Below are positions 12,784 through 32,200 of a DNA stretch of 32,263 nucleotides, piece after piece. The stretch spans positions 1 to 32,263 of the forward strand of contig NZ_MAAX01000113.1 of the NCBI RefSeq assembly GCF_002162835.1, in the 5' to 3' direction. The position numbers were made by a program, and so were the translations under genes. The notes below the pieces were generated by a model. It saw nothing but the letters and a program-made list of their open reading frames with translations, searched no databases and was not told the origin of the DNA. The stretch comes from Nonlabens dokdonensis. Lineage in GTDB: Bacteria; Bacteroidota; Bacteroidia; Flavobacteriales; Flavobacteriaceae. Every line of letters begins with the position of its first letter. Positions within the stretch are counted from its first letter, which is position 1.

Positions 12784-13650
12784 ATGGCCATAGCAAATTC
12801 TGAGTTAATTATCAATCCAGATGGTAGTATATACCACCTCAATTTAAAACCTAATCAGTTAGCCCAGACAGTTATTACAGTAGGTGATCCTGAACGAGTA
12901 AAAGAGGTTTCTAAGTACTTTGATATTGTAGAATGTAAAGTAGGAAAAAGAGAATTTCATACACATACTGGGGTTTATAAAAATAAACGTATCAGTGTAA
13001 TTTCTACTGGAATAGGTACTGATAATATTGATATTGTATTTAACGAGTTAGATGCGTTAGTAAATGTAGACTTTAATACCAGAGAAGTAAAAAATACACA
13101 TACATCACTAGACATTATACGAGTAGGGACTAGTGGCGCGGTGCAAAGCGACATTCCTGTGGATAGTTTTTTATTATCTCAACGAGGTATAGGTTTTGAC
13201 AGTTTATTTCATTGGTACGAAAATGATGGTGGTGATCTCGCTTTCGCGAAAGCGGTTTCTCAACAAATCAATAGATCGCAATTACATGCTGCACCCTATG
13301 TAGTATCTTGCAACAAAGATCTTGCAAAAAAATTCCAAACCATAGAAATGCAAAATGGTAATACGATCACTAACGTAGGTTTTTATGGGCCCCAAAGTCG
13401 TAAAATAAGATTAGAGCCTTCAGAAAAAAACTTGAATATGCAAATAAGTGATTTTAACTTTGAGGGAAGTAAAATCACTAATCTTGAGATGGAAACCGCT
13501 GGGATTTATGCCATGTCATCACTTTTAGGACATCGAGCAATTTCACTTAATGCTATTTTGGCAAATAGAGTAACCGGTGAATTTTCAGAAAAACCCAACG
13601 ACATTGTAGAAAAATTAATCAAGTTTACACTTGATCGTATCGTAGCTTGA
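12784..13650 (+). CDS. Nucleoside phosphorylase (uridine phosphorylase-like)
   Basis: 288 aa. PNP/UDP superfamily enzymes split nucleosides with phosphate. Motifs in order are 'VITVGDPERV' (phosphate loop), 'RISVISTGIGTDNIDIV', 'DIIRVGTSGAVQSDI' and 'ITNLEMETAGIYAMSSLLG' (ribose/base-site Glu-Met-Glu). 'VGDPERV' with 'EMETAG' favours the uridine phosphorylase branch, but base preference cannot be fixed. It is about 35 residues longer than E. coli Udp; the extra length lies mainly in the middle. The dispersed palindrome (13239-13254) encodes Ala153-Phe-Ala-Lys-Ala157 in this stretch. It forms a two-gene unit with the RidA gene. Confidence 0.88.
   Translation: MAIANSELIINPDGSIYHLNLKPNQLAQTVITVGDPERVKEVSKYFDIVECKVGKREFHTHTGVYKNKRISVISTGIGTDNIDIVFNELDALVNVDFNTREVKNTHTSLDIIRVGTSGAVQSDIPVDSFLLSQRGIGFDSLFHWYENDGGDLAFAKAVSQQINRSQLHAAPYVVSCNKDLAKKFQTIEMQNGNTITNVGFYGPQSRKIRLEPSEKNLNMQISDFNFEGSKITNLEMETAGIYAMSSLLGHRAISLNAILANRVTGEFSEKPNDIVEKLIKFTLDRIVA
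13239..13254. repeat. Dispersed palindrome, copy 3 (inside nucleoside phosphorylase gene)
   Basis: Perfect 16-mer. Read in frame as Ala153-Phe-Ala-Lys-Ala157, between 'GGDL' and 'VSQQINRS', in a region not part of the catalytic motifs. Confidence 0.97.
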
Positions 13651-13678
13651 TAATTATTGAAAAATTTATTAGAGAGCT

Positions 13679-13720
13679 GTGTATTAAGTACACTCAGTCT
13701 AGCTGTCTATTTTAATACAC
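13679..13720. repeat. Inverted repeat GTGTATTA/TAATACAC after the nucleoside phosphorylase gene
   Basis: Perfect 8-bp arms (13679-13686 and 13713-13720) separated by 26 bp, in the 190-bp gap before ppk1. There is no T run, so it is not a typical terminator; it could be an operator or chance. Confidence 0.35.
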
Positions 13721-13840
13721 TGATGCTGCTGCAAGTAGAAGTTGAGATAGATAAAGTTTGCATGTATTTTATAGAAATGATAATGATTTTTTAACTTCTC
13801 TTTATCTGTACAACCTTTAAAGTATATTTAATTTCAATTT

Positions 13841-15892
13841 ATGAATAAAATAGGTAAATACCCATTACAGCATCGTGATATCAACTGGTTAAGCTTTAAT
13901 GATCGCGTGCTACAAGAAGCTGCAGATGAGAGCAATCCACTCTATGAGCGTTTGAAATTTATTGCCATTTTTTCATCAAATTTAGATGAGTATTTTAGGG
14001 TTAGAGTATCACAACTGCGCCAGCTCAAACGCGTGGATAAAAGTATAAGAAAAAAGCTAGCTTTAAGACCTTCTAAATTTGTAAAACAATTACTCGCCAA
14101 AGTAGCGATCCAACAAGAAGAATTAGGTGCTATTTTCTTTGACCAGATCATTCCAGAGCTCAAGAAAAATAACATCCACTTATTAAACTTTGAAGCACTC
14201 TCACAACGTTTTAAACATCAGTCTCTAAATTATTACAATGAGTTTATCAAAAATGACATTACTGTAGAACTGGTAGAAGCTTCTAAAAGCAGTGAGATTT
14301 TCTTAGAAAACCAGCATTTATATTACCTAGTTACTTTTAACGACGAGAAAGTTTATGGGATTGTAAATATACCTTCTCACGATCACAAAAGGTTTATAGA
14401 GCTTACAGATAGTGACAATAACAATAACATTGCTTTTCTTGATGATATAGTAAAGCTGCATCTCAATGACCTTTTCCCAAATAAGGTGATTACTGATTGT
14501 TATGAGATTAAATTATCTCGTGATGCAGAGCTGTACCTAGATCAGGAGCTAGAAGGTACCCTTGCAGATTTGATACATGAATCTCTATCGCAACGTGAAG
14601 AAGGTCAAGCGACACGTCTATTATATGATAATAGAATGCCTAAAAAAGTTAGAAAAAACCTGAGAAAAAGTCTAGGTTTAGGAAAAATAGACATGGTGGC
14701 TGGTGGCACTTATCACAATTTTGATGACTTTTTTGGTTTTCCTGACCCTACAAATAACCCTAAATTACATGCTCCAGCACTGCAAACAATTAAGCATAAA
14801 GAGTTAGAAAACACAGGTTCATATTTTGATTTAATAGCTAGCAAAGACCAGCTTGTTCATTTTCCTTTTATGTCTTTTGACTATGTTCAAAAATTTATTG
14901 ATCAAGCTTCTAAAGATAATGATGTAGAAGAAATTAAAATATCCTTATACAGAGTTGCAGATGAGTCTGCCCTTACTGACGCACTATTAAGAGCTTTAAA
15001 AAATGGTAAAAAAGTAACCGTTTTTGTTGAGGCAAAAGCAAGATTTGACGAAGAGAACAACATTAAATGGGGACGTATTTTTGAAGAACATGGGGCAAGA
15101 GTTATTTATAGTTATCCTAGAATTAAAGTGCATAGCAAGGTTCTATTAGTACTGAGAAGAGAAAAAGGAAAACTAAAAAGATATGCTTACATAGGAACTG
15201 GTAATTTTAATGCCAAAACCTCAAAGATATATTGTGATCACGGACTGTTTACCGCTCATAAGAAGATTACTAAGGATCTTTTAAGGACCTTTAAGGTTCT
15301 TCAAGGTGAACTTATTATTCCTAGAGCAAGCCACTTATTGATAAGTCCATTTACAACAAGAAGTACCATAGAAAGTCTTATAAGAAGAGAAATGGATCTG
15401 GCTAAAAATGGCAAAGGCGGATTTATAACCGCAAAAATGAATCAGCTTGAAGATCCTGGAATTATCAAGCTTCTCTATCAAGCTAGTGAAGCTGGAGTAA
15501 AAATCAGATTAATAGTAAGAGGTTTCTCATGCCTAATACCGCAATTAGAAGGCTTAAGTGAGAATATCAAAATTACATCTATTGTTGATAGATTTTTAGA
15601 ACATGGTAGAATTTACAAATTCCATAATGAAGGAAATCCAGTAATGTACATGGGAAGCGCAGACTGGATGAGTAGAAATCTAGATCGCAGAATAGAGGTA
15701 CTTGCACCTATTTATGATCAAGACATTTTCAAAGAGCTCGATGATATATTAGACATTCAGCTAAGCGACAATGTTAAGGCTAGAATTCATACACCTGAAG
15801 AAAACAATCCTGTGGTAAAAAGGTCTCCTGATAAAACCATCATAAGATCCCAATCTGAGATCTATGATTATCTTCTTAAAAAACATAAATAA
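13841..15892 (+). CDS. ppk1: Polyphosphate kinase 1
   Basis: 683 aa, the usual PPK1 length. It makes polyphosphate from ATP by a phosphohistidine intermediate. Domain order is intact. The N-terminal domain starts at 'DINWLSFNDRVLQEAADESN' and 'LDEYFRVRVSQLRQLKR', followed by the head domain. Two PLD-like catalytic domains follow, with His431 ('RIKVHSKVLLV') and His588 ('IVDRFLEHGRIYKF') at the places of E. coli His435 and His592. 'YIGTGNFNAKTSKIY' and 'SADWMSRNLDRRIEV' are also conserved. There is no ppx neighbour; the gene stands alone, followed by a 479-bp gap without a strong terminator. Cytoplasmic or membrane-associated. Confidence 0.96.
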   Translation: MNKIGKYPLQHRDINWLSFNDRVLQEAADESNPLYERLKFIAIFSSNLDEYFRVRVSQLRQLKRVDKSIRKKLALRPSKFVKQLLAKVAIQQEELGAIFFDQIIPELKKNNIHLLNFEALSQRFKHQSLNYYNEFIKNDITVELVEASKSSEIFLENQHLYYLVTFNDEKVYGIVNIPSHDHKRFIELTDSDNNNNIAFLDDIVKLHLNDLFPNKVITDCYEIKLSRDAELYLDQELEGTLADLIHESLSQREEGQATRLLYDNRMPKKVRKNLRKSLGLGKIDMVAGGTYHNFDDFFGFPDPTNNPKLHAPALQTIKHKELENTGSYFDLIASKDQLVHFPFMSFDYVQKFIDQASKDNDVEEIKISLYRVADESALTDALLRALKNGKKVTVFVEAKARFDEENNIKWGRIFEEHGARVIYSYPRIKVHSKVLLVLRREKGKLKRYAYIGTGNFNAKTSKIYCDHGLFTAHKKITKDLLRTFKVLQGELIIPRASHLLISPFTTRSTIESLIRREMDLAKNGKGGFITAKMNQLEDPGIIKLLYQASEAGVKIRLIVRGFSCLIPQLEGLSENIKITSIVDRFLEHGRIYKFHNEGNPVMYMGSADWMSRNLDRRIEVLAPIYDQDIFKELDDILDIQLSDNVKARIHTPEENNPVVKRSPDKTIIRSQSEIYDYLLKKHK

Positions 15893-16371
15893 TCGTTATT
15901 TATAGAACCGTTTAACTTTTGTTAAGAATTGTAATTCAGTCAATTAACAATTGTTAACCGACGAAATGCAGCAAATTTTAACAACCGTTTTGTTTATGCT
16001 TAAATTATTTTCATCTTTTGAAAGATTTTTTTAAATAATTAATAATTGAATTATAAATACTAAATACATCTAAATTTTAATTATAATAGATTGGAAAACA
16101 GTTTTTTAAACTAATTATTTTAAGCTATATCTTTAAAATATCTGTAATCCAAAGACTCAATTTTGTTTAGCTTTTATTGATTTTAAACATATTTAATGAA
16201 ACATAATACAAAATTTTAAGAATTATATACTCAGATTTTATAGCCATTATACATATCTTAATTGAACAATTAGTATAAGTTGAGAATCCCCTACTCATAA
16301 AACTAATTTAAAAGTGAAAAAAGTAGAACCATCTACTTGTCAAATCATGTTTAAATTAAAAGGTTTTAGCT
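15893..16371. other. 479-bp very AT-rich intergenic region
   Basis: No ORF, tRNA or clear RNA gene. The first 100 bp hold a cluster of TTAAC/GTTAA sites: a 14-bp palindrome TTAACAATTGTTAA at 15944-15957, and AACCGTTT twice at 15906-15913 and 15983-15990. A weak AT-only hairpin (ATCTTT/AAAGAT followed by T) near 16013-16032 might end ppk1 transcripts. The remainder to 16371 is featureless apart from TATCTTTA-like -7 variants. It may contain a long leader or the control region of the 16372 gene. Confidence 0.5.
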
Positions 16372-17082
16372 ATGAGAAATTCGATTATCAAAATTTTGTT
16401 TGTAAGTGTGACATTGATTTGTCAAGGTCAAGTAGGTATTAACACACAAACACCTAATGCTACATTAGAAATAGAAGCGTCTAACTCTGCAAACCCATCA
16501 AATGTTGATGGTATTTTAATACCTAGAGTTGATAAGTTTCCCGATACTAATCCTGCTGCTGTTAGCGATAGCATCTTACTTTATCTAACCACAGCAGATG
16601 GCAACAACCTACCTGGTTACTATTTTTGGAATCAGAGCAATTCTCGCTGGTGTAGATTATTGACTAATGTAAACATGATATTAGCCACAGAAACAGGTTC
16701 TAGTCTTAACCTTTTAGGAAGTATTTTCAATTTCCCGTCGATGCTATATAATGACATACCAGGTGCATCTATGAATAGCAGTCATCAACTGCAGCTTCCA
16801 GTAGGCGTTTATGAAGTAGAGTCCAGCTTTAAATCAAGTACTGGTGTTTTCATAGAGTGGAATATGAGATTAAACGGTACTGTATACGCTGGATCCATAC
16901 CTGGTAACTCTTCAGTAATAAGTGTACTTGGTATAGGCATTTCTACAAGTACTCCACAAAGGGCTATTGTAGTAATTAATGATGATACTGATTATATTGA
17001 TTTCCAAATCACTTCTGGATTGGGTTTAGGTATTAACTTAGTACCTAACTCATGTTACTTAAAGATCAAGAAAGTGGGATAG
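16372..17082 (+). CDS. Secreted protein with 'VGINT' N-terminal repeat motif and beta-rich C-terminus
   Basis: 236 aa. A signal peptide (about residues 1-19, ending CQGQ) leads directly into 'VGINTQTPNATLEIEASN', a motif common at the mature N-terminus of Bacteroidota surface and fibre-like proteins. 'GILIPRVDKFP' and 'YYFWNQSNSRWCRL' follow, as in that group. The C-terminal half (about 130-236: 'QLPVGVYEVESSFKSSTGVF' and 'NMRLNGTVYAGSIP') has the alternating strands of a C1q/TNF-like jelly roll, but this is only a fold guess. There is no T9SS tail. The gene is preceded by the 479-bp AT-rich gap and followed by no clear terminator. Function unknown; an adhesin or surface-layer role is possible. 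Confidence 0.7.
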   Translation: MRNSIIKILFVSVTLICQGQVGINTQTPNATLEIEASNSANPSNVDGILIPRVDKFPDTNPAAVSDSILLYLTTADGNNLPGYYFWNQSNSRWCRLLTNVNMILATETGSSLNLLGSIFNFPSMLYNDIPGASMNSSHQLQLPVGVYEVESSFKSSTGVFIEWNMRLNGTVYAGSIPGNSSVISVLGIGISTSTPQRAIVVINDDTDYIDFQITSGLGLGINLVPNSCYLKIKKVG

Positions 17083-17225
17083 TTTTAAAATCTTAAACTT
17101 ATTTAATTTGATTACTTCAAAAGACAGCTCGATGTGTCCATTAAATGAAATGTGCTGCAAGGCTGTGAAAATAAAATACTCTTTTTAAAATGTTAACGAT
17201 AAGTACTAAGCTACCACATCTGTAC

Positions 17226-17233
17226 TATCTTTG
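17226..17233 (+). promoter_or_regulatory. Promoter -7 box before the substrate-binding-like gene
   Basis: TATCTTTG fits TAnnTTTG and ends 5 nt before the ATG at 17239, so the transcript would start at or next to the start codon. No -33 TTG is clear. Confidence 0.45.
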
Positions 17234-17238
17234 TGGCA

Positions 17239-18120
17239 ATGGATAAAAAGACAACCATAAAAATAGGTGGCGTCCCTGAACACTTCAATTTACCATGGCA
17301 TTTGGCTATTGAGGATAACGCTTTCGCGAAAGCGGGAATAGATCTAATCTGGGAAGATATTCCAGAAGGTACTGGTAGAATGAGCAAATTGCTACGAGAA
17401 GAAAAACTTGACGTGGCTTGCATCCTTACTGATGGTATAGTAAAAGATATAGTTGCTGGAAATAAATCTAAGATTTTACAGGTATACGTCTCTTCTCCTC
17501 TACTTTGGGGAGTACATGCACCAGGCAGTATCGAAGCAGATCGTACAGAACAACTTGAAGATGGTAAGATAGCGATAAGTCGTTACGGTAGTGGTTCACA
17601 TTTAATGAGTTACTTACTTGCCAAAAAACATGGTTGGGATACAGACGAAATTGAGTTTGAATTAATTAACACATTAGACGGTGCTGTAGAAGCGCTAAGC
17701 GCAAACAAAGCTCAACTCTTTTTATGGGAGCGTTACATGACACAACCCATTGTAGATCAAGGTATATTCAAAAGATTAGAAACTATTGCGACGCCGTGGC
17801 CTAGTTTTGTTATCGCTGCTACTGAGCAATGCATAAAAGAAAAAGAAGAAGCACTTTCTAAAATGCTGTATATAATCAATACCTACACAGCAGACTTTAA
17901 ATACATCCCTAGCATCGATAAAACTATTGCCTCACACTATGATCTTCAAGTAGGTGATGTACAGCAATGGTTATTACGCACAGAATTTAGTGATGACCAG
18001 CTATGGGAAAGCACTGTAGATACTATACTAGAAGAATTTACAGCTGTAGGAATTATAGAAAGAAAAGTTGCATTAAAAGATTTAATCTATGATTTATCTA
18101 AATTTGATGAGGAAGAATAA
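17239..18120 (+). CDS. Soluble periplasmic-binding-protein-like protein (no signal peptide)
   Basis: 293 aa from the ATG at 17239; a GTG at 17233 is possible but overlaps a -7 box. The fold is that of NMT1/THI5- or SsuA-like substrate-binding proteins. It starts 'TTIKIGGVPEHFNLPWHLAI', then 'GTGRMSKLLREEKLDVACIL', 'ISRYGSGSHLMSYLLAKKHG' and 'FELINTLDGAVEALSANKAQ' follow the two-lobe pattern. There is no signal peptide or lipobox, and no ABC transporter gene nearby, so it is probably cytoplasmic and may bind or act on a small metabolite. The dispersed palindrome encodes Ala28-Phe-Ala-Lys-Ala32. Family membership is reasonably clear; the ligand is unknown. Confidence 0.75.
   Translation: MDKKTTIKIGGVPEHFNLPWHLAIEDNAFAKAGIDLIWEDIPEGTGRMSKLLREEKLDVACILTDGIVKDIVAGNKSKILQVYVSSPLLWGVHAPGSIEADRTEQLEDGKIAISRYGSGSHLMSYLLAKKHGWDTDEIEFELINTLDGAVEALSANKAQLFLWERYMTQPIVDQGIFKRLETIATPWPSFVIAATEQCIKEKEEALSKMLYIINTYTADFKYIPSIDKTIASHYDLQVGDVQQWLLRTEFSDDQLWESTVDTILEEFTAVGIIERKVALKDLIYDLSKFDEEE
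17319..17334. repeat. Dispersed palindrome, copy 4 (inside substrate-binding-like gene)
   Basis: Perfect 16-mer, read as Ala28-Phe-Ala-Lys-Ala32 in 'EDNAFAKAGIDL'. Here the AFAKAGI segment sits where binding-protein relatives have an 'A.xxGl' helix end, so the peptide is compatible with the fold. Confidence 0.97.
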
Positions 18121-18158
18121 TCTCTTCTCTAGACCTCATTAGTTTTTTAACAGCATTC

Positions 18159-18530
18159 ATGATTAAAAAAATTTTATTTAAACTGCCTGAATATTATTTC
18201 ATTATTATATTATTTCTGGCTGGTTTCACACCTCCATTTTATGTTCACTATTTAAGTTTAATTTTTATTGCAGTTTTGGTACTGCAAATCGTATTTAAAA
18301 ATAAAACAAGTGGATTACTATTAGGTGGCATAGCCTTTTTTGGGAACTTGTTTTTTCTAGCAGCATTATTTTCAGAATTTAATGACTTTACCGAATTCAA
18401 TAGCGAGGCTCAAAGATTCATCATTATAGGTATTACCATCTGGGTTTTGAATCTTATAGCTTCGGTTACTATGATTTATAGATACGTGAAAATAAAAACG
18501 AGAAGTAACCAAAGAATTAAGTATTATTAA
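18159..18530 (+). CDS. Small four-helix membrane protein, unknown function
   Basis: 123 aa. Four hydrophobic segments (about residues 12-28, 29-46, 52-72 and 87-109) and a basic C-terminal tail (KIKTRSNQRIKYY) predict an integral inner-membrane protein. No catalytic or ligand motif is visible and I do not recognise the family. It begins 38 bp after the substrate-binding-like gene and ends 52 bp before the Dus gene, all on one strand, so it may be part of a run with them. The link in function is not evident. Confidence 0.7.
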   Translation: MIKKILFKLPEYYFIIILFLAGFTPPFYVHYLSLIFIAVLVLQIVFKNKTSGLLLGGIAFFGNLFFLAALFSEFNDFTEFNSEAQRFIIIGITIWVLNLIASVTMIYRYVKIKTRSNQRIKYY

Positions 18531-18582
18531 ATATTTAAGTACTAGCTAGTCATTTTAATTATTGTTGTTGTAATACAAGTAC

Positions 18583-19533
18583 ATGTCTTTTACCTTATTA
18601 TCATCGCCGCTACAAGGCTTTACAGAATTCCGTTTTAGAAATGCGTTTAATAAATATTTTGGAGGAATAGATACGTTCTATGCACCTTACATAAGATTCA
18701 ATAACAAGCCAGAAATAAGCGCTAAGTACCAACGTGATTTACAACTCGAGAACAATCGTGTTCCAGAATTGATACCGCAAGTGATGACTAATAGCGCCGA
18801 CGAGTTTATTACCGCCGTAAAGTATATCAGATCTTTAGGTTACAAAGAACTCAATTGGAATCTAGGTTGCCCCTATCCTATGGTGACTAAAAAAGGTATG
18901 GGAAGCGGTTTGATTTGTGAACCATCTAAAATAGATGCCATTCTCGATCAAGTTCATGCAGAAACAGATGTGATCGTTTCTATGAAAATGAGAATGGGTT
19001 ATTTAGAGCCTACAGAAATTCTAGGTACTTTACCTATCCTAGAAAAATATCCTATTAAAAGTATAGCCATTCATGCGCGCATAGGTAAGCAATTGTACAA
19101 AGGTGGCGTAGATTTAGAATCTTTCCAGCGTTGTCTGGATACTTCTAAAACCAAGCTTTATTATAATGGGGACATCACTACGGTTGCCGGTTTTAGAAAA
19201 ATGCAGGAACAATTTCCACTAATAGATCATTGGATGATAGGTCGTGGACTCATCGCAGATCCTTTCTTGCCTAGCATGATTAAGGCAGACACAGAGATTT
19301 ATCCAGAGAATCGCTGGGAAATCTTCCGTAAATTTCACGATACTATTTATCAAGAGTATGATGCTTTTCTACAAGGTCCTACACCTATAAAAATGAAAAT
19401 GCAAGGATTCTGGGAATACTGGTCGCAGACATTTCCTAATCCGCAAAAAGCTTTTAAGGCGATTAAAAAAGCTAATAATCCTAAAGCTTATAATCAGGCT
19501 GTGAATGATAATTTAAAAACGGTAAATAGATAG
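18583..19533 (+). CDS. tRNA-dihydrouridine synthase family protein
   Basis: 316 aa, typical for Dus. FMN-dependent Dus enzymes reduce specific uridines in tRNA D-loops. The TIM-barrel start 'LLSSPLQGFTEFRFRNAF' corresponds to the FMN-binding 'APM.G.td..FR' motif. The catalytic cysteine is Cys96 in 'WNLGCPYPMVTKKGMGS'. 'VSMKMRMGY', 'IAIHARIGKQLYKGGVD', 'LYYNGDITT' and 'WMIGRGLIADPFL' line the flavin phosphate site. The C-terminal helical tRNA-binding domain is present. Subtype (A, B, C) cannot be assigned; the C-like short form is possible. A palindrome copy lies 9 bp after its stop, before the radical-SAM gene. Confidence 0.9.
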   Translation: MSFTLLSSPLQGFTEFRFRNAFNKYFGGIDTFYAPYIRFNNKPEISAKYQRDLQLENNRVPELIPQVMTNSADEFITAVKYIRSLGYKELNWNLGCPYPMVTKKGMGSGLICEPSKIDAILDQVHAETDVIVSMKMRMGYLEPTEILGTLPILEKYPIKSIAIHARIGKQLYKGGVDLESFQRCLDTSKTKLYYNGDITTVAGFRKMQEQFPLIDHWMIGRGLIADPFLPSMIKADTEIYPENRWEIFRKFHDTIYQEYDAFLQGPTPIKMKMQGFWEYWSQTFPNPQKAFKAIKKANNPKAYNQAVNDNLKTVNR

Positions 19534-19542
19534 TTTGTTTCA

Positions 19543-19558
19543 CGCTTTCGCGAAAGCG
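19543..19558. repeat. Dispersed palindrome, copy 5
   Basis: Perfect 16-mer, intergenic. It ends 14 nt before the -7 box of the radical-SAM gene, so it covers the expected -33 region. Confidence 0.97.
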
Positions 19559-19572
19559 AAACCATAAAAACC

Positions 19573-19580
19573 TACTTTTG
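19573..19580 (+). promoter_or_regulatory. Promoter -7 box of the radical-SAM gene
   Basis: TACTTTTG fits TAnnTTTG and ends 11 nt before the ATG. The palindrome at 19543-19558 sits where the -33 element should be; no separate TTG is seen. Confidence 0.5.
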
Positions 19581-19591
19581 TAACCTGCTTT

Positions 19592-21787: not shown

Positions 21788-21861
21788 AAAACGTGTTACA
21801 CAAAATTTTATGTAACTACATTCCTTTAGGTAATAGATTCAATCTACATTAGATTTGAGGC

Positions 21862-23181: not shown

Positions 23182-23226
23182 GCAGTAAAAATAGGACAGA
23201 AAATGTAAATAGGATGGTTGAGATCT

Positions 23227-23242
23227 CGCTTTCGCGAAAGCG
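23227..23242. repeat. Dispersed palindrome, copy 6
   Basis: Perfect 16-mer in the 134-bp divergent region between the propeller lipoprotein (start 23181) and the RsmB-like gene (start 23316). Upstream of both starts, so it cannot be a terminator for either. Confidence 0.97.
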
Positions 23243-23303
23243 GAATTCCAATACAAATGCCGAAAAAAAATATTCCTTCTCATGTGTTCCATAGGAATAA
23301 ACG

Positions 23304-23311
23304 TATTTTTG
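23304..23311 (+). promoter_or_regulatory. Promoter -7 box of the RsmB-like gene
   Basis: TATTTTTG fits TAnnTTTG and ends 4 nt before the ATG at 23316, implying a nearly leaderless mRNA. No clear -33 TTG. Confidence 0.5.
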
Positions 23312-23315
23312 CAAA

Positions 23316-24524
23316 ATGAGATTTCACCACAATTTAGTGCTCGCAACTGTTGATGCATTGCACAATATATTCAATGACGGCAAGTATGCCGATCAAGCTA
23401 TTCAAAAGATTTTAAAAAGAGATACTCGATGGGGTTCTAGAGATAGAGGCTTTATTGCAGAAACTACTTATGATATTGTAAGGTATAAAAGACTATTTGC
23501 TTCTATTGCTAAGGTAAGTGAACCTTTTAATAAGCAAGATTTATGGAGACTTACTAGTGTCTGGATCGTTCTAAAAGGTCATGATTTACCAGCCTGGGAA
23601 GAATATTTCAACACACCAGTAAGACGTATAAAAGGTGGACTGGACGAAGTACGCAACAATCGTAAAATGCGAGAATCTATTCCAGACTGGCTGGATGAAA
23701 TGGGTGTTGAGGAATTAGGAAACATTTGGGAGCAGGAGATTACTGCTTTAAATGAACAAGCTCCTGTAGTACTACGAGCAAATACTTTAAAAACAGACGT
23801 TGCCACTTTAAAAGAAAAACTAATTGCAGAAGAAATTCTAACAACGACTCACGAGCGTTTTCCTGATGCCCTTATTTTAAATGAACGTGCAAACGTTTTC
23901 CGTACAAAGTTGTTTACCGATGGTTTTTTTGAAGTTCAAGATGCTGGATCGCAACTTATTGCTGCATATCTGGAGCCTAAACCAGGAGAACGTATTATGG
24001 ATGCTTGTGCTGGTGCTGGTGGTAAAGCATTACATCTTGCCGCTATGATGGAAAATAAAGGTCAAATTATTGCGACTGATATTTACCAAAGTAAATTAAA
24101 TGAATTGAAAAGACGAACGCGTCGTGCTGGAGTTCATAATGTAGAAACGCGATTGATCGACTCTACAAAAGTGATCAAAAAACTCCATAATAAAATGGAT
24201 GCTATCCTTATAGACGCGCCATGTAGTGGATTAGGTGTTTTAAGACGTAATCCTGATGCAAAATGGAAATTGCAACCAGAATTCATTGAAAATATTAAGG
24301 AAACTCAACAAGAGATCCTGCAATCTTATAGCAAGGTTGTAAAATCTGGTGGCCGAATGGTTTATGCTACCTGTTCCATATTTCCGTCGGAAAATGAGAT
24401 GCAAGTAGAAACCTTTTTAAAGTCAGAAGCTGGTACTGATTTTGAGCTAGAAAAATCTCAAACATTATATGCTCATAGAGATGGCTTTGATGGTTTCTTT
24501 ATGGCAAGAATGAAGAAAAAATAA
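23316..24524 (+). CDS. RsmB/NOP family rRNA (cytosine-C5) methyltransferase
   Basis: 402 aa. These SAM-dependent enzymes make 5-methylcytosine in rRNA or tRNA. The N-terminal NusB-like helical domain (about 1-130: 'RDTRWGSRDRGFIAETTYDI') is RsmB-like. The Rossmann domain has the SAM motif 'MDACAGAGGKALHLAAMM', then 'IIATDIYQSKLNELKRR' and motif IV 'IDAPCSGLGVLRRNPDAKWK' with Cys303. Motif VI 'YATCSIFPSENEMQVE' carries the catalytic Cys353. The 50-residue spacing between the two cysteines equals that of E. coli RsmB (325/375). A putative SAM-dependent m5C967-type activity is likely, but the target position is not proven. Near-leaderless promoter. Cytoplasmic. Confidence 0.92.
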   Translation: MRFHHNLVLATVDALHNIFNDGKYADQAIQKILKRDTRWGSRDRGFIAETTYDIVRYKRLFASIAKVSEPFNKQDLWRLTSVWIVLKGHDLPAWEEYFNTPVRRIKGGLDEVRNNRKMRESIPDWLDEMGVEELGNIWEQEITALNEQAPVVLRANTLKTDVATLKEKLIAEEILTTTHERFPDALILNERANVFRTKLFTDGFFEVQDAGSQLIAAYLEPKPGERIMDACAGAGGKALHLAAMMENKGQIIATDIYQSKLNELKRRTRRAGVHNVETRLIDSTKVIKKLHNKMDAILIDAPCSGLGVLRRNPDAKWKLQPEFIENIKETQQEILQSYSKVVKSGGRMVYATCSIFPSENEMQVETFLKSEAGTDFELEKSQTLYAHRDGFDGFFMARMKKK

Positions 24525-24555
24525 CTACCATCTCGTTTAAAATGTAAACATCTAT

Positions 24556-24577
24556 AATTTCTTAAGACTAAGAAATT
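24556..24577 (+). promoter_or_regulatory. Perfect 9-bp hairpin just upstream of the secreted nuclease gene
   Basis: AATTTCTTA (24556-24564) pairs with TAAGAAATT (24569-24577) around loop AGAC, ending 14 nt before the ATG at 24592. There is no T run, so it is not a normal terminator. It might be an operator or a 5'-UTR structure. Confidence 0.35.
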
Positions 24578-24591
24578 TACAACACACATAT

Positions 24592-26613
24592 ATGAAGAAT
24601 ATTACCCTATTGTTCTTATTACTTTCTGTAGTGGGAATTGCTCAAATCCCACCAGGATACTATAATAGTGCAAACGGACTTACAGGATATCAGCTAAAGT
24701 CTGAGTTAAGTATTATAATTTCTACTGGCTATAATGCCCAAAGTTATGGTTCATTAATTACTTTATACAACACATCTGATAACGATGAGTATTTTGATAA
24801 CGGTACACAAACGAATACGATCCTAGACATGTATTCTGAGAATCCTAACGGTGCAGATCCTTATAACTATGTCATAGGTGTCAACTCTAATTGTGGAAAT
24901 TTTAATAGCGAGGCAGATTGCTATAATCGAGAACATATTTATCCGCAAGGTTTCTTTAGTCAGAATGAGCCTATGCGTAGCGATGCTCACCACGTTATTC
25001 CTACTGATGGATGGGTAAATGGTGGTAGAAGTAATTTACCATTTGGAGAAGTAAACCCTAATGGCGCATCTATTACTACTTACATGAACGGTAGTAAAAA
25101 GGGACCTTCTATAACGACTGGTTTTAATGGGCAAGTTTTTGAACCTCTTGACGAGTTTAAAGGAGACATTGCTAGAATGTTACTTTATTTTGCTACTAGA
25201 TATGAAAACAACATAAACGACGCTGGCTGGGATGCTGCAAATGCTAGTGCAAACAATCCTCGTGATGGCTCAAGCGATCAATTCTATGAGCAATGGTATA
25301 TTGATTTACTTCTAGACTGGCATGCTCAGGATCCTGTAAGTCAAAAAGAGATAGATCGCAATAATGACATCTATGTACATCAAAATAATCGTAATCCTTA
25401 TGTGGATAATCCGCAGTATGTGACTATGATCTGGACCAGTAGTAATAATCCTTCGGGAAGAATGTTTGTTACTCTCAAAGATACATTTGTAGATCTTGAT
25501 ATGGATGGTTTTGCAAGTGCTGGAGATCAAATTACTTATGAATATGAAATTAATAACATAGGTACTACAGATTTATATAATGTACGAGCTGTAGCAGATT
25601 TTGGATCATTTACCTCTCCAGGTCAAATTCCGCAGCTCAACGCTGGTATTAATACGACTGATCCATTTGGAACACTTGCGTACACATTAACTCCAGCAGA
25701 TGTTTCAAGTTCTTGTAGTTGTGTTATCAATAAAATTACAGTCACTGCAGATTTTAATGCTACTGGTACAAATGGTAGTTTTTCAAAAGAAAGCGACGAT
25801 CCTGATAATTTTGCAAATGTGGACGGAAACGGTGACATGTTACCTGATGACGATACTAGAACAAACCTCAATGTTCAAATGCCATCTGGGGCCGCAACAG
25901 AGTTGTTTATATCAGAATACATTGAAGGTGGCGGAAATAATAAAGCTTTAGAAATTGCAAACTTCACTGGAACTGCTGTCAACCTAGCTGACTATTCTAT
26001 CCAATTAAGTCAAAATGGTAGCGGTACCTGGAACGTTTCAGAGACACTATCTGGAACGCTACAAGATCAAGAGGTTTATGTATTAGCAAGAGGTAACGCA
26101 AATGCAGCTATTCTAGCTGAAGCAGATTTATTATTAGGTAGTAGCAGTGTGTTAAATTTTAATGGTAATGATGCCATCGGTTTATTTAAAGCTGGGATTT
26201 TACTGGATCTTGTAGGTGATCCTAATAGTAATGCAGACGATATTCAAAATGAAACCTTAGTGCGTAAATCTAATATAACTGGACCTAATACCACATTTGA
26301 TAAAGTGGGAGAATGGAACATTTTTGCTCAAGACAATTCTAGTGACTTAGGTATGCATACTTTCGACAATACAGCGAGCAATGATGATTTTGTATTCCAA
26401 GATATTAGCATCTACCCTAACCCATCTACAGGTGCTTTCTATATCGGGAATCTAGAAAATGAACTGGAGCAACTAGACATTTATGATTTGTCTGGAAGAC
26501 AATTAGAAATTGCTTTAAACAACAATTATTTTTATATAAATAGAACTGGTGTTTTTATTGCACGACTACAAATAAACGGTGTTTCAAAAACATACAAACT
26601 TATAGTCAAGTAA
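24592..26613 (+). CDS. Secreted endonuclease I with lamin-tail domain and T9SS sorting tail
   Basis: 673 aa. Signal peptide (1-18), then an endonuclease I/NucM-type catalytic domain (about 20-285). The His-Me motifs are 'NREHIYPQGFF' (H115) and 'MRSDAHHVIPTDG' (H133/H134), followed by 'RSNLPFGEV', 'GDIARMLLYFATRY' and 'NRNPYVDNPQYV'. A beta-rich spacer (about 290-430) resembles surface-protein repeat domains. A lamin-tail domain follows (about 432-590: 'LFISEYIEGGGNNKALEIAN', 'GNDAIGLFKAG'). The C-terminal 70 residues ('DISIYPNPSTGAFYIGNLEN' to the end) are a type A T9SS domain. The likely role is an extracellular or cell-surface DNase/RNase for nutrient scavenging. A bidirectional terminator follows the stop. 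Confidence 0.92.
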   Translation: MKNITLLFLLLSVVGIAQIPPGYYNSANGLTGYQLKSELSIIISTGYNAQSYGSLITLYNTSDNDEYFDNGTQTNTILDMYSENPNGADPYNYVIGVNSNCGNFNSEADCYNREHIYPQGFFSQNEPMRSDAHHVIPTDGWVNGGRSNLPFGEVNPNGASITTYMNGSKKGPSITTGFNGQVFEPLDEFKGDIARMLLYFATRYENNINDAGWDAANASANNPRDGSSDQFYEQWYIDLLLDWHAQDPVSQKEIDRNNDIYVHQNNRNPYVDNPQYVTMIWTSSNNPSGRMFVTLKDTFVDLDMDGFASAGDQITYEYEINNIGTTDLYNVRAVADFGSFTSPGQIPQLNAGINTTDPFGTLAYTLTPADVSSSCSCVINKITVTADFNATGTNGSFSKESDDPDNFANVDGNGDMLPDDDTRTNLNVQMPSGAATELFISEYIEGGGNNKALEIANFTGTAVNLADYSIQLSQNGSGTWNVSETLSGTLQDQEVYVLARGNANAAILAEADLLLGSSSVLNFNGNDAIGLFKAGILLDLVGDPNSNADDIQNETLVRKSNITGPNTTFDKVGEWNIFAQDNSSDLGMHTFDNTASNDDFVFQDISIYPNPSTGAFYIGNLENELEQLDIYDLSGRQLEIALNNNYFYINRTGVFIARLQINGVSKTYKLIVK

Positions 26614-26628
26614 GATCTTACACTACTT

Positions 26629-26660
26629 AAAAAAAAAGAGCCTTAACAGGCTCTTTTTTT
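26629..26660. terminator. Bidirectional terminator between nuclease and alcohol dehydrogenase genes
   Basis: GAGCCT (26638-26643) pairs with AGGCTC (26648-26653) around TAAC. Nine A precede the stem and seven T follow it, so both convergent genes (stops at 26613 and 26685) can use it. Confidence 0.9.
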
Positions 26661-26684
26661 AATCGTACTAATGGTGATGATGTT

Positions 26685-27692
26685 CTATTTAGACATATTT
26701 AAAACACCTCTGAAACGCAATTCATTATTCATCATTTTATCAAAACCTTCTTTGGCATTATCTAGTGAGAATTCTTCAATCATAGGCAATGCTCCTGTAC
26801 GCTCGCTAAACTTTAATGTATCTTCACTGTCTGGTGCTACTCCACTAGGCCAACCTTTCAATGATTTTCTAGCTTGTAATAATTGCATTGGTGAAACTTT
26901 TACGTCATCGCCGGCAGCAGCGATTAATAACATCGTACCATCTATTCCTAAACCGTCGATAACACTCGATATAGCATCAGCGTGCGGTGCTGTGGCGACT
27001 ATGAGATCTGCGCCACCTAGTTGTTGTAATTGTTCTACGGCATCTTCATCTTTAGTAGCAATAAAATGATCTGCTCCTAGATCCATTGCAAGGTCCTTTT
27101 TATCATCTGTAGTACTTAGAGCGATGGTTCTCATTCCCATTTTATGAGCAAATTGTATCGCCAGGTGTCCTAGTCCACCTATTCCTTGAACTGCAACTGT
27201 ATCGCCAGCTCTCAATCCTGCATTACGCATCCCATTAAATACAGTAATACCTGCACATAAGAGTGGTGCTGCCTCAGTACTTTTTAAATCTTCAGGAACT
27301 CTCGCCGCTGCCTCATAAGGCGCTGTCATATATTCTGCATAACCACCATCGTAAGAAATACCAGAAACTTTGGCATTTTCACAGTTAATAAATTTACCTC
27401 TACGGCAAGGGTCACAGTCAAAACAATGTCCACCATGCCAGCCTATTCCTACTCGCTCTCCTTTTTCAAATAATGTTACATTATCTCCCAATTCTTCAAT
27501 AATCCCTATCACTTCATGACCTGGCGTTCTAGGAAAATCATTTCCCATAGCACCAGCTTGCGTAAAAGCATCACTGTGGCATATTCCACAAGCTTCTACT
27601 TTTAATAAAATCTCATTGGCTTTTGGAGAAGGCTTATCCATTTCTACGATGGTTAAATCGCCGCCTTGTTCTAAAAATCTTGCTGCTTTCAT
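26685..27692 (-). CDS. Zinc-dependent alcohol dehydrogenase
   Basis: 335 aa, medium-chain dehydrogenase family. The catalytic zinc site has Cys35 ('EACGICHSDA') and His59-Glu60 ('TPGHEVIG'). The structural zinc loop is complete ('GHCFDCDPCRRGKFINCENA', four cysteines). The cofactor Rossmann motif is 'VQGIGGLGHLAIQFAHKMG', and the following 'ALSTTDDKKDLAMDLGADHF' suggests either NAD or NADP. The overall pattern ('GIGWHGGHCFDC', 'DGGYAEYM') is close to bacterial AdhA/cinnamyl-alcohol-type dehydrogenases active on primary alcohols and aldehydes. It is monocistronic, divergent from the 27919 gene across 226 bp that carries a palindrome copy. Substrate not determinable. Confidence 0.93.
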   Translation of the reverse strand: MKAARFLEQGGDLTIVEMDKPSPKANEILLKVEACGICHSDAFTQAGAMGNDFPRTPGHEVIGIIEELGDNVTLFEKGERVGIGWHGGHCFDCDPCRRGKFINCENAKVSGISYDGGYAEYMTAPYEAAARVPEDLKSTEAAPLLCAGITVFNGMRNAGLRAGDTVAVQGIGGLGHLAIQFAHKMGMRTIALSTTDDKKDLAMDLGADHFIATKDEDAVEQLQQLGGADLIVATAPHADAISSVIDGLGIDGTMLLIAAAGDDVKVSPMQLLQARKSLKGWPSGVAPDSEDTLKFSERTGALPMIEEFSLDNAKEGFDKMMNNELRFRGVLNMSK

Positions 27693-27825
27693 AAGTTTTC
27701 GGTTTTAGTTTTCAATATAGATAAAATGCCTCTTAGAACATGTTAGAGATAGGTTAAGACTTAACAGTAAATCAATACTGATATATACGTTGCATCAGTG
27801 AAAAAAAACAGGAGCTTTATGATGT

Positions 27826-27841
27826 CGCTTTCGCGAAAGCG
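27826..27841. repeat. Dispersed palindrome, copy 7
   Basis: Perfect 16-mer, extended by T...A to 18 bp (27825-27842). It sits in the divergent gap upstream of both the alcohol dehydrogenase gene (133 nt) and the 27919 gene (77 nt). Confidence 0.97.
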
Positions 27842-27918
27842 AAACAATAACAAATCTTTTACCGGCGTTATATATTAAAGAAGTTTATATCTTTAATATT
27901 GCAATAATCAACCATCCT

Positions 27919-29139
27919 ATGAAATTATCTTACACAGTCTTATTTCCATTATTACTGATAGCCTTTAATAGCTATTCTCAAGATAGCTACCAGATGTACG
28001 GACCAGATGTAGAAGCATCTTTAAAACCTAAAGCTGGCTTACCAGAATTTACCTATGACTCACAATTGATGTCTAGTTTCATTTACAAAAGAGAGACTTA
28101 TGAAGATGATAAATTACAGTCCACAGAAACTATAAATAGACTCACTCGAGATGTTCAAGAATTAGATTATTTTCCTGTTATTGATGTTCAAAAATCTAAT
28201 TCTACCAGCTCAGATAAAGCTTCTATGGCTATTAAGAAGTCGGATACTGTTGCTTACACTCCAAAAAATGACGAGATCATATTTAATCATTCTTTGAGTC
28301 AGGAGCTGTTCCCAACTCCTACAAGAACAGAGCTTCTGGAAGAACTGGTCTTTGTAAATAAAGGTAAAATCATAGCGATTCAAGATATGAATATGTTTAA
28401 AAAATACAGTTATGATGCAAATGAAAATATAACTGAAATAGTAAGCTATCAAACGATATTAGAATTAAATGAAAGGAGTGAAAATCCAGTTCCCGTATTC
28501 ATCATGAGTCCATTATCCTATGTAAAAATTAGTTACGACTCGTCTAATAGAATGACCGATAAATGGATATACAGCAATCAAGAACTTTATTTTGAAAACG
28601 AAAACTCAGAATATAATGAAGCTTTAATAGTTCATCATGAAAAATATAAATACAATGATCGTGATCTATTAGATCAATCAACCCTTTCTACCTTTTTCAT
28701 TAAAAGTTTTCAAGAAAATGATCCAGCTGCCAAAGAATATGATAAACTTACTAATGATGTAGATACTATAGATTTTAATAAACTACTTAAATTCCTTCAT
28801 TCTAAAGATGTCTACCTAAAGAGTTACACTTATAACACCGGTAACCAAATCACAAAAAAGAGTGTAAATAAAGAGCAATGGCGTTTTAGAAATAATGAAT
28901 TGATAAAGACTAACAGTTTAGAAGTATCTAACATATCAATTGCCCAAAACGACAATAAAATAACCGTCGATGAGGAAATTGTTATAGACAATAACACATC
29001 TGATAAACAAAGATATAGAACCATTTTTGTAACCGATCAAAATTCTTATTTAACAGAAAAAACCACCTACTCAAATAAAACTAAAAAAGGGGAACTTACC
29101 TTAGAAACAAAGGAAACCATGAGTATCACCTACAAATAG
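27919..29139 (+). CDS. Secreted protein with YD-like repeats, unknown function
   Basis: 406 aa. A signal peptide (about 1-20, ending NSYSQ) precedes a hydrophilic, charged chain without transmembrane segments. Four irregular units resemble RHS/YD-type strands ('YSYDANENITEIVSYQ', 'ISYDSSNRMTDKWIYS', 'YKYNDRDLLDQSTLST' and 'YTYNTGNQITKKSVNK'). Each has an aromatic-x-Y-D/N turn followed by a polar strand. There is no toxin core, T9SS tail or lipobox, so it is probably periplasmic or loosely exported. The DNA is markedly AT-rich, as in its neighbours. I do not recognise a named family. A palindrome copy lies 77 nt upstream and another 41 nt downstream. Confidence 0.7.
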   Translation: MKLSYTVLFPLLLIAFNSYSQDSYQMYGPDVEASLKPKAGLPEFTYDSQLMSSFIYKRETYEDDKLQSTETINRLTRDVQELDYFPVIDVQKSNSTSSDKASMAIKKSDTVAYTPKNDEIIFNHSLSQELFPTPTRTELLEELVFVNKGKIIAIQDMNMFKKYSYDANENITEIVSYQTILELNERSENPVPVFIMSPLSYVKISYDSSNRMTDKWIYSNQELYFENENSEYNEALIVHHEKYKYNDRDLLDQSTLSTFFIKSFQENDPAAKEYDKLTNDVDTIDFNKLLKFLHSKDVYLKSYTYNTGNQITKKSVNKEQWRFRNNELIKTNSLEVSNISIAQNDNKITVDEEIVIDNNTSDKQRYRTIFVTDQNSYLTEKTTYSNKTKKGELTLETKETMSITYK

Positions 29140-29180
29140 TTTACGTAATATATTTATTGTAAATAAGACGTTAATAATTC

Positions 29181-29196
29181 CGCTTTCGCGAAAGCG
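29181..29196. repeat. Dispersed palindrome, copy 8 (extended)
   Basis: Perfect 16-mer whose symmetry extends by TTC on the left and GAA on the right to 22 bp (29178-29199). Intergenic, 61 nt upstream of the purL ATG and 29 nt upstream of its -7 box. Confidence 0.97.
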
Positions 29197-29225
29197 GAAA
29201 CAACTAAAATAAGCCCCTAAAAAAG

Positions 29226-29233
29226 TATCTTTG
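29226..29233 (+). promoter_or_regulatory. Promoter -7 box of purL
   Basis: TATCTTTG fits TAnnTTTG and ends 24 nt before the ATG at 29258. No clear -33 TTG; the palindrome lies just upstream. No purine riboswitch is visible in the short leader. Confidence 0.5.
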
Positions 29234-29257
29234 CAATAGCCCATAAAAGCGCTCACA

Positions 29258-32200
29258 ATGATTCATTTTTACGGAAATCCGTCCAAGTCAGTTTACGCAG
29301 TACAAACCCAAGCACCGATCTCTACAGAAGATGATCAAAAATTACAATGGCTTTTTGCCGATGCTCCAAAACTAGAAGCCGATGCTTTATCGGGATTCTT
29401 TACGGGACCACGTGCAACCACCATTACTCCATGGTCTACAAATGCTGTAGAGATTACTCAAAACATGGAAATTAAAGGAATTCTAAGAATCGAGGAATTT
29501 CATGCTTGTGAGGAGAACTCGCAGTATGATAAAATGTTGTTGCAAAAGTTTGATGGACTCAATCAATCGCAATTTGATATTAATGTAGAAGCTGAAGGCG
29601 TCCTAGAAATAGATGATATTCCTGCTTATAATATGCAAGAAGGATTATCACTTAGCGATGATGAGATCGATTACTTGATCCAGCTTTCTGAAAAATTAGA
29701 TCGTAAATTAACTGATAGTGAGGTATTCGGTTTTTCACAAGTAAACTCTGAGCACTGCCGCCACAAAATATTTAATGGAACTTTTATCATTGATGGTGAA
29801 GAGATGCCTACTTCCCTATTCAAACTCATTAAAGAAACCTCTAAACGCTGGCCTAACGGAATCGTAAGTGCATACAGCGATAACGTAGCCTTTGTAAAAG
29901 GACCACAAGCAGAACAGTTTGCGCCTAAAACTGCAAACAAGCCAGACGTTTATCAAACCAGTCTTTTTGATTCGGTAATATCATTAAAGGCCGAAACACA
30001 CAACTTCCCTACTACCGTAGAGCCATTTAATGGTGCTGCAACCGGTTCTGGTGGAGAAATACGCGATAGACTTGCTGGTGGACAAGGTTCTTTACCACTT
30101 GCAGGAACTGCGGTTTATATGACCAGCTACTCGAGATTAAATGAAGAACGACCATGGGAAAATGGCTTTGAAGCTCGTAAATGGCTCTATCAAACACCTA
30201 TGGATATCTTAATCAAAGCATCAAATGGTGCGAGTGATTTTGGTAACAAATTTGGCCAACCGTTAATCACAGGTTCTGTATTAACATTTGAACATCAAGA
30301 AGGTGATCAAAACTTAGGCTTCGACAAAGTCATCATGCAAGCTGGCGGAATAGGTTATGGAAAGAAAGAACAAGCCTTAAAGAAAACTCCAGACGCAGGC
30401 GATGATATCATCGTTATGGGTGGAGATAATTACCGTATTGGAATGGGTGGTGCTGCCGTAAGTAGTGCAGACACTGGCGCACTAGATTCTGGTCTAGAAT
30501 TAAACGCTGTACAACGCTCTAATCCAGAAATGCAAAAACGTGCTGCAAACGCGATACGTGGACTCGTAGAAAGTGATAACAATCCTATTAAATCCATCCA
30601 CGATCACGGTGCTGGTGGGCACTTGAATTGTCTATCAGAATTAGTAGAAGAAACTGGCGGAATCATAGATATAGAGAAATTGCCAGTTGGTGATCCTACA
30701 CTATCTCGCAAAGAACTAATCGGTAACGAGTCCCAAGAACGTATGGGATTAGTGATGGATGCAAAAGACTCACCTGTACTGGAAGAAATAGCCGCTCGTG
30801 AGCGTGCACCTTTATATAAAGTAGGTAAAGTTACCGGAGATAATAAGTTCACGTTCAGTGAAAAAAATGGTCGCAGCCCTATGGATCTAGCGCTGGAAGA
30901 TATGTTCGGTTCTAGTCCTAAAACCATAATGGATGACAAGACCATCGAGCGCATTTATGATGCGGTTCCTTATGATGGTAAAGATTTTAAGCTCTATTTA
31001 TACAACGTATTACGCATGGAAGCTGTCGCTTGTAAAGACTGGCTGACTAATAAAGTAGATCGCTGTGTAACAGGTCGCGTTGCCAAACAACAGACTTGTG
31101 GAGAACTGCAACTACCATTAAATAACGTAGGTGTTATGGCGATGGATTATAACGGTAAAAATGGAGTAGCGACCACAATAGGTCACGCGCCAGTTGCCGC
31201 ATTAATCGATCCAGCTGCTGGTTCTCGCAATGCTATTGCAGAGTCGCTGACTAATCTTGTTTTTGCACCATTAGAAAAAGGCCTTAAAGGCGTGAGTCTA
31301 AGTGCTAACTGGATGTGGCCATGTAACAATCCTGGTGAAGATGCTCGTTTATACAACGCTGTAAAAGCCGTGAGCGATTTTGCCATTGAATTAGGAATCA
31401 ACATTCCTACTGGTAAGGACAGTCTTTCTATGAAGCAAAAATATCCAGACATGGATGTATTGGCTCCTGGAACGGTCATCATCAGTACGGTAGGTGCTTG
31501 TGATGATATTTCTAAAGTCGTAGAACCGGTATTGCAACGCGATTACAAGGCTCCTATTTATTACATCAATATGAGTGGCGATGACCATAAACTAGGTGGC
31601 TCTAGCTTTGCACAAACACAAAATAAAATTGGTAATGAATGTCCTACGATTGTGGATAGTTCCGCTTTCGCGAAAGCGTTTACCGCTATACAATCTTTGA
31701 TAAAATCAGGCAAAGTGCTCGCAGGGCACGATGTTGCTAGTGGTGGATTAATTACCACTTTACTAGAAATGTGTTTCCCTTCACAAAACGTGGGAATGGA
31801 ACTGGATCTGGCTACGGTAGGTCATGATATGGTCAAAGTTTTGTTCTCAGAAAATGCTGGAATCGTGCTACAAGCTACCGATGATAGCGTAGAAGAAGAA
31901 TTGGCTAAAACAGGCGTTCCTTTCTTTAAAATAGGAAACGCCATAGACGAAGCCGTTTTAGACATCAATGAATTCATCATAGACGTAGATGACATGCGTG
32001 ATGTTTGGTATGAAACTTCACATTTATTAGACCGCAAACAATCATTTAACGGCACCGCAGATGAACGTGCGTTAAACTATGTGAACCAGCCGCTGGAATT
32101 TAAATTTCCTGAGCATTTTACAGGAAAACTACCAGAATTACCTCAAAAACGCATCAAAGCAGCCGTAATACGTGAAAAAGGAAGTAATTCTGAACGAGAA

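Follow-up and report, generated by a model that had tools for sequence, protein, structure and literature searches.

The stretch of DNA analysed here (the window) comprises 32,263 nt of the 3.04-Mb genome of Nonlabens dokdonensis and contains genes for carbamoyl-phosphate synthase large chain (carB), a nucleoside phosphorylase (PNP) and a Ca3427-like periplasmic-binding-type protein (SBP) as well as a purL-like open reading frame (ORF), each of which holds one copy of a palindromic DNA word whose nature is the subject of this study (Table 1). When the window was searched for CTTTCGCGAAAG with up to two mismatches, nine matches were found, all of them exact, compared with an expectation of 0.88 and a maximum of 4 in shuffles (n = 100). 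All nine copies are also exact over the longer word GCTTTCGCGAAAGC, which occurs 701 times in the whole genome, the backwards-read control pattern occurring not once. A preliminary description of this DNA had pointed out that the palindrome is read as the pentapeptide AFAKA in three unrelated genes (PNP residues 153-157, SBP residues 28-32 and purL residues 803-807) and as TLSRK in carB. These readings are correct, with the reservation that the SBP numbering hinges on the start codon: AFAKA begins at residue 30 from the GTG at 17233, or at residue 28 if counting starts at the in-frame ATG that lies two codons downstream. The ORF at 22111-23358 on the minus strand, which the preliminary description does not mention in this connection, also reads AFAKA, but upstream of its likely true start (MKKILILALIILSAACKD, with a lipoprotein-like signal), and this pentapeptide is probably not translated, copy 6 probably being intergenic.

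Table 1. Copies of the palindromic word in the window and the genes that hold them
Feature	Position	Strand	Remarks
Palindrome copy 1	4122-4135		Intergenic; exact 14-mer
Palindrome copy 2	6207-6220		Within carB (minus strand); read as TLSRK, residues 482-486
Palindrome copy 3	13240-13253		Within nucleoside phosphorylase; AFAKA, residues 153-157
Palindrome copy 4	17320-17333		Within substrate-binding-like protein; read as AFAKA
Palindrome copy 5	19544-19557		Intergenic; 10 bp after one gene and 34 bp before the next
Palindrome copy 6	23228-23241		AFAKA in an over-extended ORF; probably divergent intergenic region, judging from the start codon
Palindrome copy 7	27827-27840		Intergenic, between divergent genes
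Palindrome copy 8	29182-29195		Intergenic, ahead of the purL-like ORF
Palindrome copy 9	31664-31677		Within the purL-like ORF; AFAKA, residues 803-807
carB, carbamoyl-phosphate synthase large chain	4813-7665	-	Holds copy 2; Pfam CPSase domains
Nucleoside phosphorylase (PNP_UDP_1)	12784-13650	+	Holds copy 3; Pfam PF01048, E 2e-21
Ca3427-like periplasmic-binding-type protein	17233-18120	+	Holds copy 4; Pfam PF22384, E 1.4e-14
purL-like ORF	29258-32263	+	Holds copy 9; open ORF running off the window end; named purL in the preliminary description

All 23 Nonlabens genomes searched hold between 288 and 857 copies each. Among 397 genomes of the family, only four Nonlabens genomes (the window's included), Dokdonia sinensis SH27 (G206; 857 copies) and one genome of a further genus (G190; 408 copies) are rich in the word, the rest having 0-19 copies, and among 395 genomes across the phylum the window's own is alone rich, the next highest count being 6. 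An uncultured Dokdonia locus has three copies in 10.9 kb. In a midpoint-rooted tree of two proteins, PNP and ParB (FastTree, supports not shown), Nonlabens stands apart from Dokdonia and G190. Metal-resistance islands in other flavobacterial genera (loci L052, L053, L054 and L055; genomes G160 and G215) also contain a few copies at conserved places; four copies with identical spacing are common to G160 and G215, and two are common to G087 and G337 at 72-74% DNA identity. Genes of these islands, largely named by eye, encode P-type ATPases, CzcA/CusA-like pumps and a multicopper oxidase. The sequences suggest that the island copies may be traces of motif-rich donors. A text search of the open-licence literature (titles, abstract starts and term counts) found no description of this word; the relevant part of PMC8034619 contains TTTCGCGAAA, but deals with words that the genomes of humans and other animals lack.

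For reading frame, spacing, flanks and sharpness we analysed samples of four genomes, namely the Nonlabens genomes G000 (66 copies) and G401 (200 copies; 800 kb, about 9.8 kb of which is masked N), G206 (44 copies) and G190 (15 copies), in which coding and intergenic fractions are approximate because the ORF caller is simple. The occurrence of AFAKA in three unrelated enzymes could be taken to mean that the pentapeptide is a conserved protein feature and that the DNA word merely follows from it. This is contradicted by the approximately 49% of copies that are intergenic (151 of 310 pooled over G401, G000 and G206), by the absence of AFAKA from 694 kb of called coding sequence in 76 loci of other genera, and by the fixed codons: motif codons encode 86 of 90 AFAKA occurrences in G000 and G401 together, where codon usage predicts about 0.7-1%, and also 17 of 21 in G206 and all five in G190. 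Codon identity at the motif among AFAKA-bearing species is 0.938 in PNP (366/390) and 0.856 in SBP (334/390), versus 0.56 at other conserved Ala, Phe and Lys residues, these being pairwise counts over related species (with G414 left out) and not independent events. A protein feature as the cause thus has a negligible chance of being right, and AFAKA looks like a side effect of the DNA word and no protein motif. Sharing of AFAKA with other codons by distant orthologues, which the preliminary description had named as a sign of protein-level conservation, was not seen in these other-genus loci, and the AFAKA variants with other codons at the PNP and SBP sites of Nonlabens are one to a few silent changes off. 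Its remark that the GCG, TTC and TCG codons stand out from their surroundings is borne out by the G000 sample, in which all three are minority codons (11.5% of Ala, 21% of Phe and 4.6% of Ser codons, respectively).

The origin of the coding copies was examined by aligning orthologues at the PNP and SBP sites over approximately 20 species each (G407 and G408 lie outside the syntenic set), and at both sites AFAKA replaces aligned residues and adds none. At the PNP site, 12 of 21 Nonlabens rows hold the word, the local alignment is gap-free, and the rows lacking the word read EFADA, EFTDA, KFTDA, TFADA, KFAAA, TFIDA or KMAQD at the same length; at the SBP site it is present in 10 of 20 rows (that of G414 being a truncated match), again gap-free, the others reading AFEKA, AFEKE, AFEKV, AFKEA or AFAKE at the same length. 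Other genera have DFSEA, DFSKA, DFAQA and similar peptides at the PNP position, with gaps only a few residues upstream, and the PNP site is absent from G206 and G190. AFAKA is kept with at least one silent change at the PNP site of G242, G394 and G407 and at the SBP site of G242, G406 and G010, which looks like decay of the word. For carB, the single orthologue among the loci compared (G400) also has the word. These comparisons show that the word came to the PNP and SBP sites by point substitution in resembling codons and was kept at the codon level. Of the two origins proposed in the preliminary description, conversion of resembling sequence under selection for the DNA has therefore stood, while insertion has not, at these two sites. 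A mobile palindromic repeat (REP/RAYT-like) that is tolerated in the AFAKA frame would fit the many dispersed palindromic copies and their intergenic enrichment; with no insertion at either site, and with no match to the RAYT gene (Y1_Tnp) in 6 of 22 motif-rich genomes (G397, G401, G402, G404, G410 and G190), this explanation is extremely improbable. This and the other gene-family tests were each made on 40-48 chosen genomes, 22 of which are motif-rich.

Coding copies do prefer the AFAKA frame (frame 0), as the preliminary description had proposed: the counts for frames 0, 1 and 2 are 27/6/9 in G000, 59/16/17 in G401, 17/1/7 in G206 and 5/3/2 in G190, or 108/26/35 in total, in the samples of the four genomes and not over all 701 copies. 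Without the initial 15% of each ORF, a part in which over-calling of starts is frequent, the counts were 70/23/27 (chi-square p = 4e-8). The reasons offered for this preference, stop avoidance among them, do not hold: since all three frames are stop-free (AFAKA, xFRES and xLSRK), stop avoidance is no argument for any of them, and the bias is already present among near-matches in motif-free genomes (27:3:4 at three mismatches and 147:53:36 at four). The availability of resembling codons, that is, of A-F-E/A-K-A-like stretches (GCT TTT GAA AAA), can thus account for the preferred frame. Shuffled palindromes also have frame tilts of their own.

The palindrome is the exact core of a dyad-symmetric element of about 50 bp with C-poor flanks. 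The outer C and G that make up a 16-mer are also kept, in 59 of 66 sampled copies of G000, 37 of 44 of G206 and 7 of 15 of G190, and of all 6-mer palindromes TCGCGA shows the strongest over-representation in the G401 sample. From 9 to approximately 25 bp from the centre, the flanks on both sides are C-poor and T/G-rich in G000, G401 and G206, and more weakly so in the 15 copies of G190. T is favoured at every third base (11, 14, 17 and 20 from the centre), in intergenic copies too, where its frequency at the favoured phase versus the other two is 0.74 versus 0.35-0.47 in G000, 0.50-0.55 versus 0.33-0.36 in G401 and 0.57-0.68 versus 0.33-0.49 in G206. Each flank contains about 4 bits of information, and left and right flank scores correlate in G401 (rho 0.23, p 0.0009; compare G000, 0.14, p 0.26, and G206, 0.24, p 0.12). 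Complementary flank pairs number 841 versus 816 expected in intergenic and 596 versus 626 expected in coding copies; this pairing, hardly above what composition gives, favours recognition as DNA and disfavours a long hairpin. RNA folds of five copies were modest (z -0.07 to -2.43). Bases 9-11 from the centre vary by species (position 9 is C or T in G000, mostly T in G401 and mostly A in D. sinensis), like lineage-specific dialects of one element. The word is sharply kept: exact and one-mismatch copies number 66 and 6 in G000, 200 and 25 in G401, 44 and 15 in G206 and 15 and 2 in G190. In Nonlabens there are 8-11 exact copies for each copy with a single mismatch, although 42 single changes are possible. 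A role as intrinsic terminator was considered and rejected, as none of the seven copies in 13000-32263 lies among the 15 terminator-like sites and there is no convergent excess in G401.

Over the sampled chromosome the word occurs about once per 4 kb, more evenly than chance would place it. In a null model that kept coding and intergenic positions in their own classes (1000 runs), the coefficient of variation of gaps was 0.929 for G401, 0.876 for G000 and 0.883 for G206, as against 0.493, 0.511 and 0.631 observed, values reached in 0, 0 and 4 of the runs, respectively; a simpler null for G401 put the coefficient at 0.89 and the expected number of gaps shorter than 500 bp at 20.9. None of the three samples contains a gap this short, where the class-keeping null predicts 25.8, 6.3 and 5.0, and copy counts in 40 windows of G401 have a variance/mean of 0.45 with no empty window. 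Close pairs do exist, as in G397 (Nonlabens), where two pairs among the first listed places are 270 and 223 bp apart. Intergenic copies number 108/200 in G401, 24/66 in G000 and 19/44 in G206, while intergenic bases make up 23.8%, 11% and 11%. Two of the six longest motif-free stretches of the G401 sample are in one metal-resistance/conjugation region (locus L212), one adjoins a multicopper oxidase (locus L225), and one, apparently the longest gap of all, is largely masked.

The main rival explanation is an uptake or recombination signal of the kind of uptake signal sequences (USS) and DNA uptake sequences (DUS), a word that natural transformation would spread at about fragment-length spacing. 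Such sequences are accommodated in tolerant protein positions and in a preferred reading frame. Even spacing fits this explanation, the spacing of DUS being reported to equal the length of conversion fragments (PMC2397512, in part), and according to the portion of PMC2346458 consulted, uptake sequences are biased in their orientation inside reading frames and, in Pasteurellaceae, towards the ends of genes. Replicons that lack the word fit it as well: Nonlabens phages P12024S and P12024L (35 kb each) have no copies, where host density would give about 8 each, and nor does a plasmid-like contig of 29 kb from G404 on which Mob_Pre is encoded. Among the small contigs, five that look chromosomal hold 1-4 copies, and those of 5.65 and 29 kb hold none, the mobilisation gene being found only on the latter of these two. 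Besides Mob_Pre, this contig (contig 2 of G404; L362) encodes an AbiEii-type protein and a CAP12/Pycsar TIR-domain protein. Against an uptake signal, the Nonlabens word is a dyad-symmetric palindrome, whereas the uptake sequences termed DUES are called non-palindromic in the part of PMC1939737 at hand, which also puts one-mismatch and exact copies of the Haemophilus influenzae USS at 764:1471, compared with 25:200 here. The available text of PMC7811141 mentions USS pairs separated by 69 and 230 bp; pairs this close are absent from the three samples, though G397 has its pairs 270 and 223 bp apart. A literature search on DNA uptake sequences in Bacteroidetes found no such motif by title or abstract start. 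Taken together, we regard an uptake signal as rather unlikely.

A dispersed palindrome with a restriction-like core, TCGCGA, would also fit a HIP-like site that owes both its creation and its upkeep to an orphan DNA methyltransferase together with methyl-directed repair, and under that model copies should saturate at a fixed spacing (PMC4390886, as far as its text was available). The C5 methylase family PF00145, however, is matched in 12 and without a match in 10 of the 22 motif-rich genomes (G000 and G190 among the latter) and is matched in 12 of 26 others. PF01555 has no match in 9 of the 22 and matches in 13, 12 of them over the cut-off and that of G000 below it; type I HsdM and Dam-like families lay outside this test. 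A footprint of 50 bp would also be long for a single methylase. We consider this explanation improbable.

Sites of ParB (parS) are palindromes with TTTC and GAAA half-sites. The Nonlabens word, a palindrome of 14-16 bp with the same half-sites, resembles them and might be a partition or Noc-type occlusion site; but 19 of the 22 motif-rich genomes have exactly one match to ParB_N (extra matches occur only in G398, G401 and G411), and in an alignment of 30 ParB proteins no column separates the 12 from motif-rich genomes from the 18 others, which gives no sign of an altered recognition helix. A canonical parS-like site, GTTTCACGTGAAAC, exists in G401 besides, and copies of the word are found in all 40 sampled windows of that chromosome, unlike the placement of parS. 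Such a role is very unlikely. The GTTTCACGTGAAAC site lies at position 13237 of locus L206, just upstream of an ORF that looks by eye like mnmG/gidA, and inside a long motif-free stretch. When 80 loci (up to 10.9 kb) were screened for 12-mer palindromes occurring at least twice per locus, only the Nonlabens word (in two Dokdonia loci) and ATCGTATACGAT were found, a weak test in that two Nonlabens loci held one copy each and would be missed. Often as AATCGTATACGATT, ATCGTATACGAT was found in 58 of 249 Flavobacteriaceae genomes with 1-10 copies each, which frequently form clusters spanning tens of kb. It was seen in loci L149, L155, L156, L167, L173, L181 and others near position 5564 and in genomes G201, G172 and G227; one recurrent location is within the phosphorylase gene, and the three Nonlabens genomes covered by this search lack it. 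It resembles an origin-proximal or parS-like site.

The palindromic core, the symmetric flanks, the even spread and the sharp upkeep together point to a homodimeric protein. We infer, with a probability of roughly 0.5, that CGCTTTCGCGAAAGCG in its dyad of about 50 bp marks chromosome-wide sites of a putative dimeric, sequence-specific DNA-binding protein, written into genes by point mutation, and that AFAKA is their shadow. Such a protein would need its sites spread evenly over the chromosome, perhaps for organisation, repair or recombination, and a new site would be favoured far from its nearest neighbour but not within about 1 kb of one. Several observations weigh against this proposal. The tests for methylases, ParB, RAYT and RecC (PF04257, with no match in the 40 genomes tested; AddAB was not searched for) gave no supporting gene, so that no binder was found, and even spacing and intergenic enrichment are equally expected of uptake sequences spread by transformation. 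Intergenic placement is uneven and inconsistent: G401 has 1.11 copies per kb in divergent, 0.67 in codirectional and 0.58 in convergent regions, and G206 has 0.33 in divergent regions versus 1.22 and 1.28 in the others, that is, no consistent preference for an intergenic type, and coding copies of G401 crowd the first fifth of ORFs (31/92), partly from over-called starts. Sites also turn over between species, which means that no individual site is essential, and the word of D. sinensis is less sharp (15 one-mismatch forms to 44 exact copies). Finally, the 16-mer was found in 41 stretches of viral contigs, which may include bacterial flanks, with six copies in the 37-kb contig IMGVR_UViG_3300040781_000495 (L254, L271 and L274).

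As a tentative generalisation of the dimer-site proposal, which we consider possible though not probable, the element might represent a new genome-saturating class of exact, evenly spaced 50-bp dyads that a dimeric system recognises, one that moves horizontally and is present in two or three flavobacterial lineages at the least; they would serve as a chromosome-wide anchor grid or as palindromic, two-way recombination-initiation sites. In the latter variant, the strands that run into the core, C-poor and G/T-rich with T in every third place, would lend themselves to the loading of a triplet-reading recombinase. On this reading, hundreds of places in the proteome of the genus are being altered to fit the element. 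The word is a clean example of proteins rewritten by demands at the DNA level, one pentapeptide turning up in unrelated enzymes because a chromosomal word is set every few kb. The purpose of genome-saturating words, be it drive, repair or chromosome structure, would be testable in a culturable marine genus.

Sites of parS, Noc and SlmA are palindromic dimer sites that occur in tens at the most and in particular regions, whereas the Nonlabens word has hundreds of copies chromosome-wide. Escherichia coli Chi is similar in density (1008 in 4.64 Mb), but it is asymmetric and has 8855 one-mismatch forms versus 1008 exact copies (PMC1939737, in part). HIP1 (GCGATCGC) of cyanobacteria is likewise a short palindrome with hundreds to thousands of copies that is clade-wide with occasional low-frequency genomes, according to the part of PMC4390886 consulted. 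The Nonlabens word matches its over-representation, with 701 copies against none backwards and 288-857 copies in 23 of 23 genomes; on the other hand, it is neither GCGATCGC nor a known alternate HIP, belongs to another phylum, and has a core of 14-16 bp inside a dyad of 50 bp, its copies are spaced by about 4 kb, and neither PF00145 nor PF01555 is universal in the genomes rich in it. With USS and DUS it has in common that exact copies are scattered by the hundred, evenly spaced and in excess between genes (PMC1939737 and PMC2397512, both in part), but theirs is an asymmetric motif of Pasteurellaceae and Neisseriaceae, in another phylum, while the Nonlabens core is palindromic and its flanks are alike. 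In sharpness, a comparison that is rough because word lengths differ, the available part of PMC1939737 gives 438 exact and 947 one-mismatch copies for the USS of Actinobacillus pleuropneumoniae and 5648 and 1830 for the 10-mer HIP of Synechocystis. The Nonlabens word is sharper than all of the words quoted from that paper, and that of D. sinensis (44:15) is about equal to HIP. The Nonlabens element is longer and sharper than the HIP and uptake sequences compared, and its near neighbours are rare.

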